Shown: positions 365 to 5,290 of the stretch, piece after piece
Layout of the letters: each line of letters begins with the position of its first letter
Numbering within the stretch: the stretch's first letter is position 1
DNA from: Candidatus Tectimicrobiota bacterium
GTDB taxonomy: Bacteria > JACPSX01
Length of the DNA: 5,502 nucleotides
Assembly (NCBI GenBank): GCA_016193065.1
Contig: JACPSX010000250.1
Span: 1-5,502 of the forward strand
Reading direction: 5' to 3'
The notes under the pieces: model-generated
The model's database searches: none
What the model saw: the letters and a program-made list of their open reading frames with translations, nothing else
What the model was told of the DNA's origin: nothing
Position numbers and translations under genes: made by a program

Positions 365-595
365 TCATCTCTTCCTGTTCACTTCATCAACGACAAGCCC
401 TCCGGCGACGCCCGCAGCGCCTCCGACAATAGCGCCGAGGACCGCACTACCGCCGGTGAGCGCTCCAATTACGGCGCCGCCAACAGTACCGATGGCTCCA
501 CCAGTCAGAGCCCGCTGCTGTTGGGGAGTCAGACCCGCACACCCCGTGCTTCCGAACAACATCACGACGATTAGAAACGCACTAATCAATCTCAT
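365..595 (-). CDS. OsmB-like glycine-zipper lipoprotein
   Basis: This is a 76-residue protein. The start at 595 is preferred over an in-frame ATG at 634 for two reasons: it has GGGGAGG upstream at good spacing, and it puts the signal peptide at the very N-terminus, whereas the longer form would overlap the preceding gene. Residues 1-18 form a lipoprotein signal peptide (MRL, then a hydrophobic core) ending in the lipobox-like STGC, so the mature protein would begin at acylated C19. After a short LTPQQQRAL linker, residues 31-67 are almost entirely Gly/Ala/Val/Ile with repeated GxxxG steps, and the tail is charged (DEVNRKR). Size and order match E. coli OsmB and other glycine-zipper lipoproteins, which are small stress-induced outer-membrane proteins. 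It sits 28 bases after the response regulator gene and 22 bases before the next zipper gene. The symbol osmB is not assigned because orthology cannot be shown here. Confidence 0.87.
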   Translation of the reverse strand: MRLISAFLIVVMLFGSTGCAGLTPQQQRALTGGAIGTVGGAVIGALTGGSAVLGAIVGGAAGVAGGLVVDEVNRKR

Positions 596-623: not shown

Positions 624-1031
624 TTACGGATCAAGCCTGCTCACGACTGCCTTTAACTGGGCGAGATCAATCGGCTTCTCAAGAAATTCCGACACCTTCA
701 AAAGCTCGGCTTGCGCTTTCACTTCCGGACCCGCGTCCGCGCTCACCACAATGATGGAAATCCTTGGGTGAAACGCCCGGAAAATCCGCACCAGATCCCA
801 ACCGCTCATCGTCAGACCGTGAACGGGCGGCAGGCCGAGGTCGATGATCGCGACCTCGAACTGGTTTTCCTTCACTTTCTTGATGGCCTGCCAGCCGTCC
901 GTAGCCGTTTCCACCTTCCATCCCCCATGCGCCAGGGACCATCTCAAGCCTTCGAGACTGTGAAGATAGGGATCTACAATGAGAATCCTTCTTTGCGCTG
1001 CCACTGATCGTCCACCCAGCTTGACATCCAT
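624..1031 (-). CDS. Single-domain response regulator (receiver only)
   Basis: This protein has 135 residues, essentially one CheY-like receiver domain (about 15-133) with no output domain. The phosphoacceptor is D64 in IIDLGLP, the switch Ser/Thr is S97 in VVSAD, and the conserved lysine is K119 in LEKPID. Two features are odd. The usual Asp-Asp/Glu-Asp metal-binding pair is D20-P21, so one acidic residue is missing. The loop after D64 (PPVHGLTMSGWDL) appears to carry about four extra residues before the Gly that precedes alpha-3. The frame stays open upstream to 1193, but I start at the ATG at 1031: the extra residues are not receiver-like, and a consensus sigma-54 promoter inside that stretch would place transcript initiation near 1059. 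The Shine-Dalgarno is modest (GAGAG, 8 bases upstream). It is the first gene of the operon; without a DNA-binding domain it probably works by protein contact or as a phosphate sink. Confidence 0.9.
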   Translation of the reverse strand: MDVKLGGRSVAAQRRILIVDPYLHSLEGLRWSLAHGGWKVETATDGWQAIKKVKENQFEVAIIDLGLPPVHGLTMSGWDLVRIFRAFHPRISIIVVSADAGPEVKAQAELLKVSEFLEKPIDLAQLKAVVSRLDP

Positions 1032-1069: not shown

Positions 1070-1085
1070 AGCAACCGGCGTGCCA
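1070..1085 (-). promoter_or_regulatory. Sigma-54 (RpoN) promoter, full consensus
   Basis: Read on the minus strand this is TGGCAC-GCCGG-TTGCT, matching the sigma-54 consensus TGGCAC-N5-TTGCW at every defined position, with the invariant GG and GC at the required spacing. Transcription would start about 12 bases downstream, near 1059. That leaves a leader of about 28 bases before the response regulator ATG at 1031. The site lies in the 295-bp gap between the two operons and points into the response regulator and glycine-zipper genes. Sigma-54 holoenzyme cannot open DNA without an AAA+ activator, and such an activator is encoded about 2.5 kb away in this window. Confidence 0.88.
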
Positions 1086-1192: not shown

Positions 1193-1205
1193 TGTAAACT
1201 TTACA
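1193..1205. promoter_or_regulatory. Palindromic activator site 1 (TGTAAA-C-TTTACA)
   Basis: This is a perfect 6+1+6 palindrome with core GTAA-N3-TTAC at 1194-1204. Its centre is about 140 bp upstream of the predicted sigma-54 transcription start, within the usual range for the upstream sites bound by NtrC-family activators. The GT-N7-AC form resembles the layout of NorR sites. That the activator encoded nearby binds here is inferred from position and symmetry. Confidence 0.6.
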
Positions 1206-1215
1206 CTGTGGGCCT

Positions 1216-1226
1216 GTAAGTGTTAC
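1216..1226. promoter_or_regulatory. Palindromic activator site 2 (GTAAGTGTTAC)
   Basis: This second copy of GTAA-N3-TTAC has its centre 22 bp from that of site 1, so both sites present the same DNA face two helical turns apart. It lies about 160 bp upstream of the predicted sigma-54 start. Paired dimer sites on one face suit cooperative assembly of an AAA+ activator hexamer. The three central bases differ from site 1 (GTG against ACT) while both outer half-sites are kept, as expected for an operator. Confidence 0.57.
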
Positions 1227-1326
1227 GCAGTGGGGCAGGTGGCATGTGACGTCGATGTCAGAGAAAATCGTTGAAGCGAAGGGAGCGCACGATTCCAGTT
1301 GCGGGACAACAACGGGGAGAGGTTCC

Positions 1327-1746
1327 CTAGCGAAGAGCGCTCAACAGTTCTTCTGCCAGAACGTAGGCTTTGTCAGCCAAGTTAAACGCCTGCTGGAACT
1401 CTTTGTTTGCGAGCGCCGCCTTTCCTCTGGCAAGGAATCCGTGGATGAAAGAAAGGGTCTCCTGTTGATCCTTGGCCAGCCTTTTGGGATCGATCCGCGT
1501 GACCATGCGCTCCGTGCCCTTGATCCGCGTATCGGCCTGCTGCCTCAACCGATCTTCTTCTGCCGGACTGAGCTGAGGAGACAGCACGGCAGGAGGCCGC
1601 GAGGGCTCCTTTTTCGCGGGTGCCGAGGGTGGAGCGGAAGGAGTGGGCGGTGCAAGGATCTCTTTCAGCCGGGTACAGCTCGTCAGGGCCAGTGCGATGA
1701 GTACGAATGCAAGGAAGTGTCCGAATGTTGGACGCAATTGAGTCAT
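1327..1746 (-). CDS. Small lipoprotein coupled to the histidine kinase gene
   Basis: This is a 139-residue protein of no family I recognise. Residues 1-23 are a lipoprotein signal peptide: a short polar start, hydrophobic FLAFVLIALAL, and lipobox LTSC with C24 as the acylated residue. A Pro/Ala/Ser-rich linker follows (about 32-60), typical of a tether reaching from the membrane. Residues 62-138 are predicted, by their heptad-like pattern of Leu/Ala and charges, to be all alpha-helix. The last part (FLARGKAALANKEFQQAFNLADKA) resembles a single TPR-like helical hairpin. Its ATG overlaps the kinase stop codon as ATGA, so translation is very likely coupled and the two proteins are probably made in fixed ratio. 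The context suggests a periplasm-facing accessory to the kinase, comparable in position to ZraP-like partners, but there is no sequence evidence for metal binding. No clear terminator is visible downstream. Confidence 0.87.
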   Translation of the reverse strand: MTQLRPTFGHFLAFVLIALALTSCTRLKEILAPPTPSAPPSAPAKKEPSRPPAVLSPQLSPAEEDRLRQQADTRIKGTERMVTRIDPKRLAKDQQETLSFIHGFLARGKAALANKEFQQAFNLADKAYVLAEELLSALR

Positions 1747-3572
1747 GAACGGTCCGCCTTCGCCGGGAAACGGACGACGACGGTAGTACCCTTGCCCACC
1801 TCCGAGAAGACATCAATGGCGCCGTCGTGCATCTGGACAATGCGATAGGCCAGAGACAAGCCGATTCCACTCCCCTCGGGCTTGGTCGTGTAGTAGAGCT
1901 TGAAGACCTTTTCCAGATCCTCCGGGGAGATACCGATCCCTTCATCGATAATACGCACTGTGACGCACTCCTCTTGCCTCTTCTCGCCCTCGGTCACAAG
2001 GCTGACCGTCCCTCCGGCCGGCATGGACTGGCAAGCGTTTAACACGATGTTTAGGAATACCTGGCGCAGGAGTTCCTCATCAGCCGTGACAGGGGGGAGG
2101 GAGGAATCCAACTTGAGCTCAAAGTGGATCGCTGACCTTTCCCATTCTGTCTTCAGAAGCGCTGTGACTTCTCGCAGGAGCCTGTTCAGGTCCACGAGCC
2201 TCAAGCTCAGGTCGTGGGGCCGCATGAACTTCAAAAACCCCTGGACGACGCGGTCCAGCCGGCGGATCTCGCCGCGGATGACCTCCAGGCTGTCCTGCAC
2301 TTCCTCGGGAGACCCAGCCAGTTTCTCCTTGAGCAGTTCCAGGTGGATCATCATGGCATTGAGTGGATTCTTGACTTCATGGGCGACTCCGGAGGTTAGA
2401 CTCCCGAGGGCGGCAAGCTTGGCCGAGTAACTGATGAGCGACTGAAGCGTCTTAATGGAGCCCAGGTTCTTCAGGAGGATCATGGAGCCCATCGTCTTCT
2501 GGGCATCGGACACAAAGAAATGAGAAACCAGCAACTCCTGGGGCTTGCCATATCCGGGAACGACGATGGTGGCGTTTCGGAAGCCGGTCTTGCGCTCGAA
2601 GGATCGCTCCAGGAGCGGATGCAAAGGGTGAGAGGGATCCAGGATGTGGGCGAGCCGGGATCCCACCGCTTGCTCCAGAGGCCGGCCCACGACTGCCTCG
2701 GTGGCTCTGTTGTAGAAAAGGATCTCGCCATCCTGGTTGAGGAAGACGATCCCGTCCTCCAGGTGATCGACGACCTGTTGAAGACGGGCTTTCTCGCTCA
2801 GCATCGTCAAACGGTCAGACTGGATCTGCCGTCCCAGGAGTTGGATCTGGGAAGCCAGCTCGCCTACCTCGTCTTTCCCAACCAAGTCCGCAGCCACCCC
2901 GGGCTCTCCGCGTCTGAGGCGGTCCATTTCCAGGGTGAGCGCGCGGATCGGCTTCAGGATCACGCCGGCCAGCCCCATGGCAACCAACCAGGCGACCGGC
3001 AGTGCCACACCGGCCAGAGCGACGCTCTGTCCCAGGAAGGCCTTCAACTCCCGCCTCAAAAGGGTGGTGGACACTCCAAGCTTGATATTCCCGAAGGGCT
3101 CATCGTTGAGCTTTATGGGCATGGCGACTTCGTAGATCGTTTCGCCCGCATACAAAGACCGGAAGCGCCGAACCGGATCGAGGGAAAGGAGATTTTGAAG
3201 GTTTGGCCGCTCGGGAGCGTCTGCTCCCTCCCTTTCCCCTTCGCTGCCGAGAACCACCCGGCCCGTTCGGTCGGCAATCAGGACATACAAAAGGTGGGGT
3301 GAGTAACCGACGCTGGCGTGGAGAAGGCTGCGAAGATCCCGGTCTACTTTTAACACCTGGCGGGGATCCCTGCCCGGGGCACGGGCAAGGGCGCGCCGGC
3401 TTTGCGCGTAGACCTGCCTGGCGATGAGTTGGGACTGCTCCAGTGCTTCCCGAACGACGACCCGGCTCAATTGAGAGAGGTGCACGAGCGTGGCGGTCGC
3501 CACCGCGAGGAATGTGAGCGCACTGATAGCGACCGCTTCCTTGGCCTTAATGCCGAAGCGCATCCGGGTCAC
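1743..3572 (-). CDS. Membrane sensor histidine kinase (Cache-HAMP-PAS-HisKA-HATPase)
   Basis: This 609-residue kinase is the partner of the activator gene just upstream. Domains in order: TM1 about 12-32; a periplasmic single-Cache-like sensor about 33-180 (LLYVLIADRTGRVVLGSE, later GNIKLGVS); TM2 about 184-206; HAMP about 204-258; PAS about 262-375 (HLEDGIVFLNQDGEILFYN); HisKA with phospho-acceptor H398 in GVAHEVKNPLN; and HATPase with N box around N508-N512, G1 box DEGIG (543-547), F box about 557-564 and G2 box GSGIGLSLA (567-575). All catalytic motifs are intact. It should autophosphorylate on H398 in response to a periplasmic cue and pass the phosphate to the activator. The start is uncertain: GTG at 3572 or ATG at 3563 (606 residues, MRFGIKAKEA). 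Both lie inside the 3' end of the activator gene, neither has a good Shine-Dalgarno, and translation is probably coupled. Residue numbers count from the GTG. The ligand cannot be read from the sequence. Confidence 0.97.
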   Translation of the reverse strand: MTRMRFGIKAKEAVAISALTFLAVATATLVHLSQLSRVVVREALEQSQLIARQVYAQSRRALARAPGRDPRQVLKVDRDLRSLLHASVGYSPHLLYVLIADRTGRVVLGSEGEREGADAPERPNLQNLLSLDPVRRFRSLYAGETIYEVAMPIKLNDEPFGNIKLGVSTTLLRRELKAFLGQSVALAGVALPVAWLVAMGLAGVILKPIRALTLEMDRLRRGEPGVAADLVGKDEVGELASQIQLLGRQIQSDRLTMLSEKARLQQVVDHLEDGIVFLNQDGEILFYNRATEAVVGRPLEQAVGSRLAHILDPSHPLHPLLERSFERKTGFRNATIVVPGYGKPQELLVSHFFVSDAQKTMGSMILLKNLGSIKTLQSLISYSAKLAALGSLTSGVAHEVKNPLNAMMIHLELLKEKLAGSPEEVQDSLEVIRGEIRRLDRVVQGFLKFMRPHDLSLRLVDLNRLLREVTALLKTEWERSAIHFELKLDSSLPPVTADEELLRQVFLNIVLNACQSMPAGGTVSLVTEGEKRQEECVTVRIIDEGIGISPEDLEKVFKLYYTTKPEGSGIGLSLAYRIVQMHDGAIDVFSEVGKGTTVVVRFPAKADRS

Positions 3573-4917
3573 CGTAGCGATGGAGCTTGTTGTGAAGGGT
3601 CTTCAGGCCGATCCCCAGTATCTCGGCGGCTTTGGTCTTGTTGTTGTGAACAAAGGCGAGGGTGCTCAGGATCAGTTGCTTCTCGGCCTCCTCGACGGTG
3701 GTTCCCACGGGTATCGTGACGGCTTCCGAGTTTTGGTCGTGCGCCCCGACTCGAAAGCGTGGGGGAATATGGTCCGCAACGATAAGGTCACCCTCGCAAG
3801 CAATGATCGCTCGTTCGATGGTGTTCCGGAGCTCTCGGACGTTCCCGGGCCAAGGATTACTGAGCAGGATCTGGAGAGCCGCGCCGTCAATCGCTTTGAT
3901 CCGCTTCTCATATTTGCGGTTGAACTCCTCGATGAAGGCCTGAACAAGGAGGGGGATGTCATCAGTCCGCTCCCGCAGGGGCGGAAGAAAGAAGGTGAAT
4001 ACGTTCAAACGGTAGAAAAGGTCCTCCCGAAGGCTGCCTGCTTTGATGGCCTTCTCAGGATCTTTGTTGGTTGCGGCCACAATCCGCACGTCTATCTGGA
4101 TTTCCTTCTGTCCCCCAAGGCGCCGCAGCGTGCCGTCCTGAACGATGCGAAGGAACTTCGCCTGGGTGGATGGGCTCATCTCGGCGATCTCATCCAGGAA
4201 AAGGGTGCCGCCGTTCGCCATCTCAAAGCAGCCGATCCTGCGCTCCAGAGCCCCCGTGAATGCTCCCTTTTCGTGTCCGAAGATCTCGCTCTCCAGGAGC
4301 GTTTCCGGGATCGCCGAGCAATTCACCGGAACGAACGGACCGCTCCGGCGGGGGGAGAGATCATGGAGGGTGCAAGCGACCAACTCCTTGCCGGTTCCGC
4401 TCTCTCCGCAGATCAAGGCGGGAGCCGGGGTGGGAGCGGCCAGCTCGATGAGGCGGTACACCTCCTGCATGGGCTTGCTCGTTCCTACCAGATTGCCAAG
4501 CCCCCAAACCTCCTTCAGGCGCCGGCGGAGGAGGGTCACCTCGCGTAAGGTCTCGCCTTTCTCCAAGGCTTTCTGGACGAGCATTCGGAGCCGGGGGATA
4601 TCGACCGGCTTGGTCAGGTAGTCGTAAGCCCCCTCCTTCATGGCGGAGACTGCCGTTTCGATGGTGCCGTGGGCGGTAAGGAGGATGACAGCCGCGAAGG
4701 GGAGTTCTTCCTGAAGGGCTTTCAAAAGCCCCAGCCCGTCGAGCTTCGGCATGAGGAGATCAAAAATAACAACGGACGGCAGGAACGTAGCGGCCTTTTT
4801 CAGGGCTTCCTCGCCGTCCGCGGCGTCTTCGACTTCATAGCCCCAGGAGGAAAGAAGCGCCTTCAATCCCTTCCGCGAGGCCTCTTCATCATCCGAAATC
4901 AAGACCCGATGCGGCAT
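3547..4917 (-). CDS. NtrC-family sigma-54-dependent response regulator
   Basis: This 456-residue protein is a full-length NtrC-type enhancer-binding protein. The receiver is about 3-118, with acidic pair D9-D10, phosphoacceptor D53 in FDLLMP, T81 and K103. The AAA+ sigma-54 interaction domain is about 142-370: Walker A GESGTGK (171-177), the sigma-54-contacting GAFTGA loop (218-223), Walker B LFLDE (239-243), arginine-finger candidates R297 and R303, and WPGNVREL (356-363). A Fis-type helix-turn-helix lies at about 408-448 (NNKTKAAEILGIGLKTLHNKL). Every motif needed to hydrolyse ATP and remodel sigma-54 holoenzyme is present. The ATG at 4917 has a GAGGGGGA Shine-Dalgarno and starts exactly at the receiver; an in-frame start at 5004 would add 29 residues of no recognisable domain. 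First gene of the operon, its 3' end overlapping the kinase start. The likely target is the sigma-54 promoter at 1070-1085, with binding at the paired palindromes; this is inferred. Confidence 0.98.
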   Translation of the reverse strand: MPHRVLISDDEEASRKGLKALLSSWGYEVEDAADGEEALKKAATFLPSVVIFDLLMPKLDGLGLLKALQEELPFAAVILLTAHGTIETAVSAMKEGAYDYLTKPVDIPRLRMLVQKALEKGETLREVTLLRRRLKEVWGLGNLVGTSKPMQEVYRLIELAAPTPAPALICGESGTGKELVACTLHDLSPRRSGPFVPVNCSAIPETLLESEIFGHEKGAFTGALERRIGCFEMANGGTLFLDEIAEMSPSTQAKFLRIVQDGTLRRLGGQKEIQIDVRIVAATNKDPEKAIKAGSLREDLFYRLNVFTFFLPPLRERTDDIPLLVQAFIEEFNRKYEKRIKAIDGAALQILLSNPWPGNVRELRNTIERAIIACEGDLIVADHIPPRFRVGAHDQNSEAVTIPVGTTVEEAEKQLILSTLAFVHNNKTKAAEILGIGLKTLHNKLHRYGDPDALRH

Positions 4918-5252: not shown

Positions 5253-5290
5253 TGGTGGAGCTGGCGGGGATCGAACCCGCGACCTCTAGA
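5253..5290 (-). other. 3' end of an alanine-type tRNA or tmRNA, candidate attachment site
   Basis: On the minus strand this reads variable loop AGGTC (5281-5285), a perfect T stem-loop GCGGG-TTCGATC-CCCGC (5264-5280), acceptor 3' strand CAGCTCC (5257-5263) and ACCA (5253-5256). This is the 3' end typical of tRNA-Ala and of tmRNA. Upstream I cannot fold a matching anticodon arm, D arm or GGAGCTG 5' acceptor strand at tRNA distance, so it is a fragment rather than a working tRNA. Such fragments are the usual trace of a tyrosine-integrase element inserted at a tRNA or tmRNA 3' end. In that model the sequence beyond the 5' side (higher coordinates) is the element and the lower-coordinate side is host chromosome. 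A complete tmRNA extending beyond the right edge is an alternative, but I see no supporting pseudoknot or tag features. Confidence 0.6.

Follow-up and report, generated by a model that had tools for sequence, protein, structure and literature searches.

A predicted sigma-54 promoter conserved across NC10 bacteria probably belongs to a self-contained two-component envelope module

Results

A predicted sigma-54 promoter between a two-component system and glycine-zipper genes

The 5,502-nucleotide contig analyzed here (the window, meaning the whole stretch) carries on its minus strand a predicted sigma-54 promoter. It probably belongs to a self-contained two-component, sigma-54 envelope module, in which an activator, upstream dyads, and the promoter drive genes for a receiver-only protein and glycine-zipper proteins. 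The gene order on the minus strand is activator, kinase, small lipoprotein, a 240-base gap, receiver, glycine-zipper lipoprotein, and second glycine-zipper protein. The promoter motif, the dyads, their conservation, this gene order, and the GAFTGA and HTH motifs of the activator are all features that can be read from the sequences. Window coordinates are as follows.

3547..4917, minus: NtrC-type sigma-54 activator, receiver-AAA+(GAFTGA)-Fis HTH (Pfam Sigma54_activat, 1.3e-67)
1743..3572, minus: membrane sensor kinase, sCache-HAMP-PAS-HisKA-HATPase (Pfam); sensor domain conserved in NC10
1327..1746, minus: small lipoprotein with an LTSC lipobox, encoded together with the kinase; conserved (36-46% identity) in 8 loci
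1215..1227: distal candidate enhancer dyad, on the minus strand CGTAACACTTACA with one mismatch, spaced 22 bp from the proximal dyad
1193..1205: promoter-proximal candidate enhancer dyad, exact TGTAA-N3-TTACA; identical 13 bases in the paralogous contig C182, same place in loci L092 and L093
1070..1085, minus: predicted sigma-54 promoter, -24 TGGCAC, -12 TTGCT, spacer GCCGG; exact match, kept in the paralogue and 7 orthologous loci
1059, minus: predicted transcription start (+1), placed from the -12 GC at 1072-1071
624..1031, minus: receiver-only response regulator, start ATG 1031 or GTG 1004 (Pfam Response_reg, 3.6e-16)
365..595, minus: small glycine-zipper lipoprotein (GCAGLTPQQQRALTGGAIG), sub-threshold YMGG-like; orthologues in L088, L089, L094, and L096
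1..342, minus: second glycine-zipper protein, N-terminal membrane segment, truncated at the contig end; shares 90% identity with the C182 copy

A sequence resembling the 3' end of a tRNA (T-arm, acceptor, and CCA) was noted by eye on the minus strand at 5253-5280 and is perhaps an integration-site remnant; ARAGORN found no tRNA in the window.

An earlier sequence-only reading of this DNA had reported an exact TGGCAC-N5-TTGCT on the minus strand. This was confirmed: TGGCACGCCGGTTGCT at 1085-1070 was the sole motif match in the window, and none of 200 dinucleotide shuffles of the window contained the motif. The GG and GC stand 10 bp apart in TGGCAC-N5-TTGCW, the sequence pattern of a sigma-54 promoter, and the match lies upstream of the receiver start in the gap between the small lipoprotein and receiver genes. 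The same reading had placed +1 near 1059, with an ATG at 1031 28 bases on, and this agrees with the position of the -12 GC. Its promoter-based interpretation is supported.

Motif occurrences in the genome and a decaying paralogous copy

Genome-wide (2.9 Mb), TGGCAC-N5-TTGCW had 8 matches versus 1 for a backwards control, with a chance expectation for the exact motif of ~2.8 per genome from base composition alone. Behind every one of the eight, a plausible same-strand reading frame opens 27-218 bases after the motif start. One match belongs to a paralogous module on contig C182; the receiver proteins of this module and the window share 89-91% identity. The -24 and -12 elements of the C182 promoter are intact and its spacer is ATCCG where the window has GCCGG, the pattern expected from selection on -24/-12.

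The C182 module (L037, 1-3825) is a second, decaying copy in which promoter and receiver are intact. Its first glycine-zipper gene is stopped after 26 codons (L037 2602-2680), and the second has shrunk to MAKDIWNPWKSK (L037 3141-3179). The left end of the contig holds a further copy of the second glycine-zipper gene (90% identity), and behind it comes a gene for a Phenol_MetA_deg-type outer-membrane protein. Contig breaks within the second glycine-zipper gene suggest that the module is present as tandem repeats.

The six remaining exact motifs are in L039, L040, L041, L044, L045, and L046. Among the genes behind them are those for a cNMP-binding protein (with a MotA-like protein encoded downstream of it), a heavy-metal-binding-motif protein, a small periplasmic protein beside a Spy/ZraP-like one, and a pseudopilin-like protein. 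About 100-150 bases upstream of the motif, L040 and L046 carry TTGTGCA/TGCACA-type repeats (e.g., TTGTGCACATTGCACA), a candidate enhancer for a different activator.

Conservation of the promoter across orthologous loci

The receiver alone, used as a query of the genome collection, retrieved no locus; the small lipoprotein and the kinase sensor domain were then used. The lipoprotein query yielded two genomes with the same gene order (G225 and G355), and the sensor domain yielded six NC10/Methylomirabilota contigs, one labelled Candidatus Methylomirabilis oxygeniifera. Nine loci were compared, comprising the window, C182, G225, G355, and the five of the six NC10 contigs that reach the lipoprotein-receiver region; five of the seven orthologous loci are NC10/Methylomirabilota.

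TGGCA[CT]-N5-[TC]TGC was present in 9/9 loci, between the lipoprotein or other upstream gene and the receiver gene. In all nine, the surrounding intergenic sequence has diverged although the motif is kept at the same place, and the shuffle probability per occurrence was <=0.002. Over the 91,492 bases of the nine loci the motif occurred nine times, once per locus and always here, and the reversed control 0 times. Because this pattern was used to locate the orthologous promoters, the constancy of its letters partly reflects how they were picked; neither the fixed position nor the control count is affected. The sequence-only reading had proposed examining orthologous upstream regions for loss of -24/-12, and we saw none in the nine loci. 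At the level of predicted sites, the promoter arrangement is kept across NC10 (Methylomirabilota). The best other glycine-zipper match (57%, genome G084) had nearby no recognisable kinase, receiver, or such promoter and was rejected.

In two genomes of the set, TGGCA[CT]-N5-TTGCT precedes a PII (glnB-type) gene that is followed by glutamine synthetase.

L090:4552 and L091:4859: motif before the PII (glnB-type) gene, TGGCACACGATTTGCT / TGGCATACGACTTGCT

A PII gene with glutamine synthetase is a classic sigma-54 target, and the motif at this place supports the TGGCAT variant. These PII-gene promoters could usefully serve as a positive control when sigma-54 promoters of NC10 are studied.

Presence of rpoN

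Searches with three models did not find rpoN in the window's own assembly, a MAG that is 86% complete in 294 contigs. The sequence-only reading had named lack of rpoN as a finding that would speak against it. That is true of this assembly, but rpoN is present in all eight other genomes carrying the locus (8/8), and the genome encodes about 15 strong sigma-54 activators. Given these observations and the 86% completeness, an assembly gap is the likelier reading.

Activator, kinase, and paired upstream dyads

The protein encoded at 3547-4917 has the receiver, the AAA+ domain with GAFTGA, and the Fis-type HTH of NtrC-type activators. The GAFTGA motif and the HTH segment around NKT..AEILG..LKTLHNKL are conserved in seven aligned proteins, and the activator gene stands two genes upstream of the promoter wherever an orthologous locus extends that far. 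The small lipoprotein encoded at 1327-1746 matched no Pfam family. Neither the dyads nor the activator and kinase genes directly upstream had been mentioned in the sequence-only reading.

The dyads lie ~120 (120-122) and 142 bp before the -24 element, with starts 22 bases apart, distances that fit the range for upstream activator sites (~100-200 bp). NtrC-like activators usually use paired dyads and 100-140 bp spacing (PMC11841059, PMC7962754). When the window was aligned with C182, the dyad block was nearly unchanged. Exact TGTAA-N3-TTACA was found at three genomic places, all in the window and C182 promoter regions, and about 0.8 would be expected anywhere in the genome. L093 has both dyads with the same 22-bp pairing and L092 has one, at matching distances. 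The Methylomirabilis clade has only looser GTAA-N3-TTAC cores at other distances, and no such core was found in the promoter region of L094; the dyads are thus clearly conserved within one clade only. We infer that they are activator sites and that the neighbouring activator binds them. Upstream of the activator gene itself we found no sigma-54 motif and no GTAA-N3-TTAC dyad, leaving autoregulation by the same kind of site unsupported. TGTAA and TTACA were absent from the main text of a survey of Desulfovibrio response-regulator targets (PMC3333781).

Receiver and glycine-zipper genes

The earlier proposal that the ATG at 1031 begins the receiver gene fits the 28-base distance, but this ATG is not conserved. 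The C182 paralogue, L092, and L093 align best from the in-frame GTG at 1004-1002 (N-termini VAAQRRILIVD / VAVEKVTVQKRILIVD / MEKRILIVD / VAVQKKKILVVD), and with this better conserved start the leader may be ~55 nt rather than 28 nt. Between the two clades, receiver identity is only 20-27%. Both receiver copies of this genome retain the phospho-Asp, the Ser, and the Lys (Asp64, Ser97, and Lys119 in the window), and the second acidic (Mg-binding) residue is replaced by Pro (Ala in C182): VDPY in the window and VDAY in C182 (L037:2166-2573) versus VDDD in relatives. Since both copies have lost this residue, receiver chemistry may have changed. In L096 (5966-6628) and L095 (8516-9028), receiver and glycine-zipper lipoprotein share one frame with no stop between them; the lipoprotein's own start and signal lie inside, so that either a fusion or an internal start is indicated.

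The first glycine-zipper gene begins 28 nt after the receiver stop and has a strong ribosome-binding site (AGGGGAGG). Its product, with a lipobox Cys after STG (by eye), had been called OsmB-like, a label that the profile search did not bear out: the best Pfam model was Gly-zipper_YMGG at 27.3 bits (cut-off 28.9), followed by Gly-zipper_OmpA and Gly-zipper_Omp, all below cut-off. The L088 orthologue passed the YMGG cut-off, at 34.3 bits. For the second glycine-zipper protein, the C182 copy had a sub-threshold match to YMGG-like Gly-zipper. OsmB of E. coli is likewise a short lipoprotein with a glycine zipper, and its gene is controlled by Rcs and RpoS, not sigma-54.

Comparison with known systems

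The closest parallels combine a kinase with an NtrC-type activator. The E. coli system QseE-QseG-QseF (GlrK-GlrG-GlrR) has its kinase, lipoprotein, and NtrC-type activator genes in one operon, as in the window; several dyads ahead of a neighbouring sigma-54 promoter (glmY) serve as binding sites for its activator, and the system is linked to envelope homeostasis (PMC6075780). It differs from the window in gene order, kinase sensor domain, dyad (TGT-N12-ACA), and targets (the sRNA glmY and rpoE). Homology of the small lipoprotein to QseG was looked for with a profile search of PDB sequences, which gave no QseG match and nothing else credible. PrsK-PrsR, with the PEP-CTERM sigma-54 promoter motif, resembles the window in having a kinase and an NtrC-type activator, with an intergenic activator site and -24/-12 elements before surface-protein genes (PMC1569441). 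However, the window activator scored 389 of 502.6 bits against TIGR02915, below the PrsR cut-off, and no PEP-CTERM gene was seen; the predicted targets here are a receiver and glycine-zipper lipoproteins. In the enterobacterial ZraS-ZraR system, a membrane kinase is likewise paired with an NtrC-type activator, and the sigma-54 promoters on which it acts belong to small envelope proteins. Its targets differ from those in the window, and scores were far below the equivalog cut-offs for both ZraR (363 of 760) and ZraS (188 of 479). With the regulators below the cut-offs for AtoC, PrsR, and ZraR, and no QseG match for the lipoprotein, the module would work like QseEGF or PrsKR but is filed as neither.

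Discussion

The arrangement described above can be read in several ways. That the consensus match arose by chance in a species lacking sigma-54 would accord with the missing rpoN and with the number of chance matches expected per genome, but is very improbable: the motif occupies one position in nine loci, orthologous genomes have rpoN in 8/8 cases, the backwards control gave 1 match versus 8, and the genome encodes 15 strong activators, the window's with GAFTGA. We rejected a chance match on the conservation in paralogue and orthologues. There is some prospect, though a rather poor one, that the promoter serves the receiver gene alone and that the neighbouring glycine-zipper genes are transcribed independently. 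L093, where we found promoter, dyads, and receiver without a glycine-zipper gene, would fit this, as would C182, with its first glycine-zipper gene truncated by a stop and its promoter and receiver intact. Against it, the gene immediately behind the receiver in L088, L089, L094, and L096 encodes the glycine-zipper lipoprotein (in one frame with the receiver in L096), a lipoprotein start follows the receiver in frame before the contig end in L095, and the window gene has its strong ribosome-binding site at a distance of only 28 nt.

It is also unlikely that the promoter is real but the dyads are used by another of the ~15 activators or by a different DNA-binding protein, the neighbouring two-component system being linked by position only. 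The alternative activators exist, the Methylomirabilis clade does not clearly retain the dyads though it does conserve the activator's HTH, and GTAAT-N-ATTAC-like cores (as in L088) also resemble Fur/Zur-family operators. Yet wherever an orthologous locus extends far enough to include the activator gene, that gene is a neighbour of the promoter, and the dyads of the window clade form pairs with 22-bp spacing at some distance upstream of the core promoter, which is enhancer-like and not usual for repressor operators.

We therefore favor a self-contained module, which might operate as follows. The kinase, with its periplasmic sCache domain and probably tuned by the adjacent small lipoprotein, would phosphorylate the NtrC-type activator; kinase and lipoprotein together may sense envelope state, for which QseG and QseE offer a parallel (PMC6075780). 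The activator would bind the two dyads, 22 bp or two helical turns apart and 120-142 bp upstream of -24, loop to sigma-54 RNA polymerase at TGGCAC-N5-TTGCT, and open the promoter. The resulting transcript would encode the receiver-only protein and the glycine-zipper envelope proteins. For the receiver protein, the most likely role would be feedback on the kinase, either by drawing off phosphate or by competition; changes to the envelope would come from the glycine-zipper proteins. Activator-dyad binding, the lipoprotein's role, receiver feedback, and the signal are the inferred parts of this scheme.

More tentatively, the module may represent an undescribed NC10-wide envelope-response system. 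In it, activator, sCache kinase, and lipoprotein co-sensor would act through paired TGTAA-N3-TTACA enhancers on a receiver-only feedback protein and glycine-zipper lipoproteins; the target module would have been duplicated in the window lineage, and loss of the second acidic residue from its receiver would have made feedback independent of phosphorylation. We hold this extended version to be possible, with the balance somewhat against it.

The sequence-only reading had described sigma-54 control of such an operon as not known. For the operon this is fair: in open-licence PubMed Central we found no paper joining glycine zipper with sigma-54 or RpoN, and only passing co-mentions of Methylomirabilis with sigma-54/RpoN. 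Control of lipoproteins and the cell exterior by sigma-54, however, is an established theme (PMC3162934), so the interest lies in this particular module. A single promoter match has become a testable regulatory circuit that offers a concrete enhancer motif together with a candidate activator and its predicted targets. The circuit belongs to NC10, a phylum that includes bacteria oxidising methane with nitrite and whose gene regulation is little known. The module would lend support, from a deep lineage beyond the usual model organisms, to the idea that the bacterial exterior is under sigma-54 control (PMC3162934).
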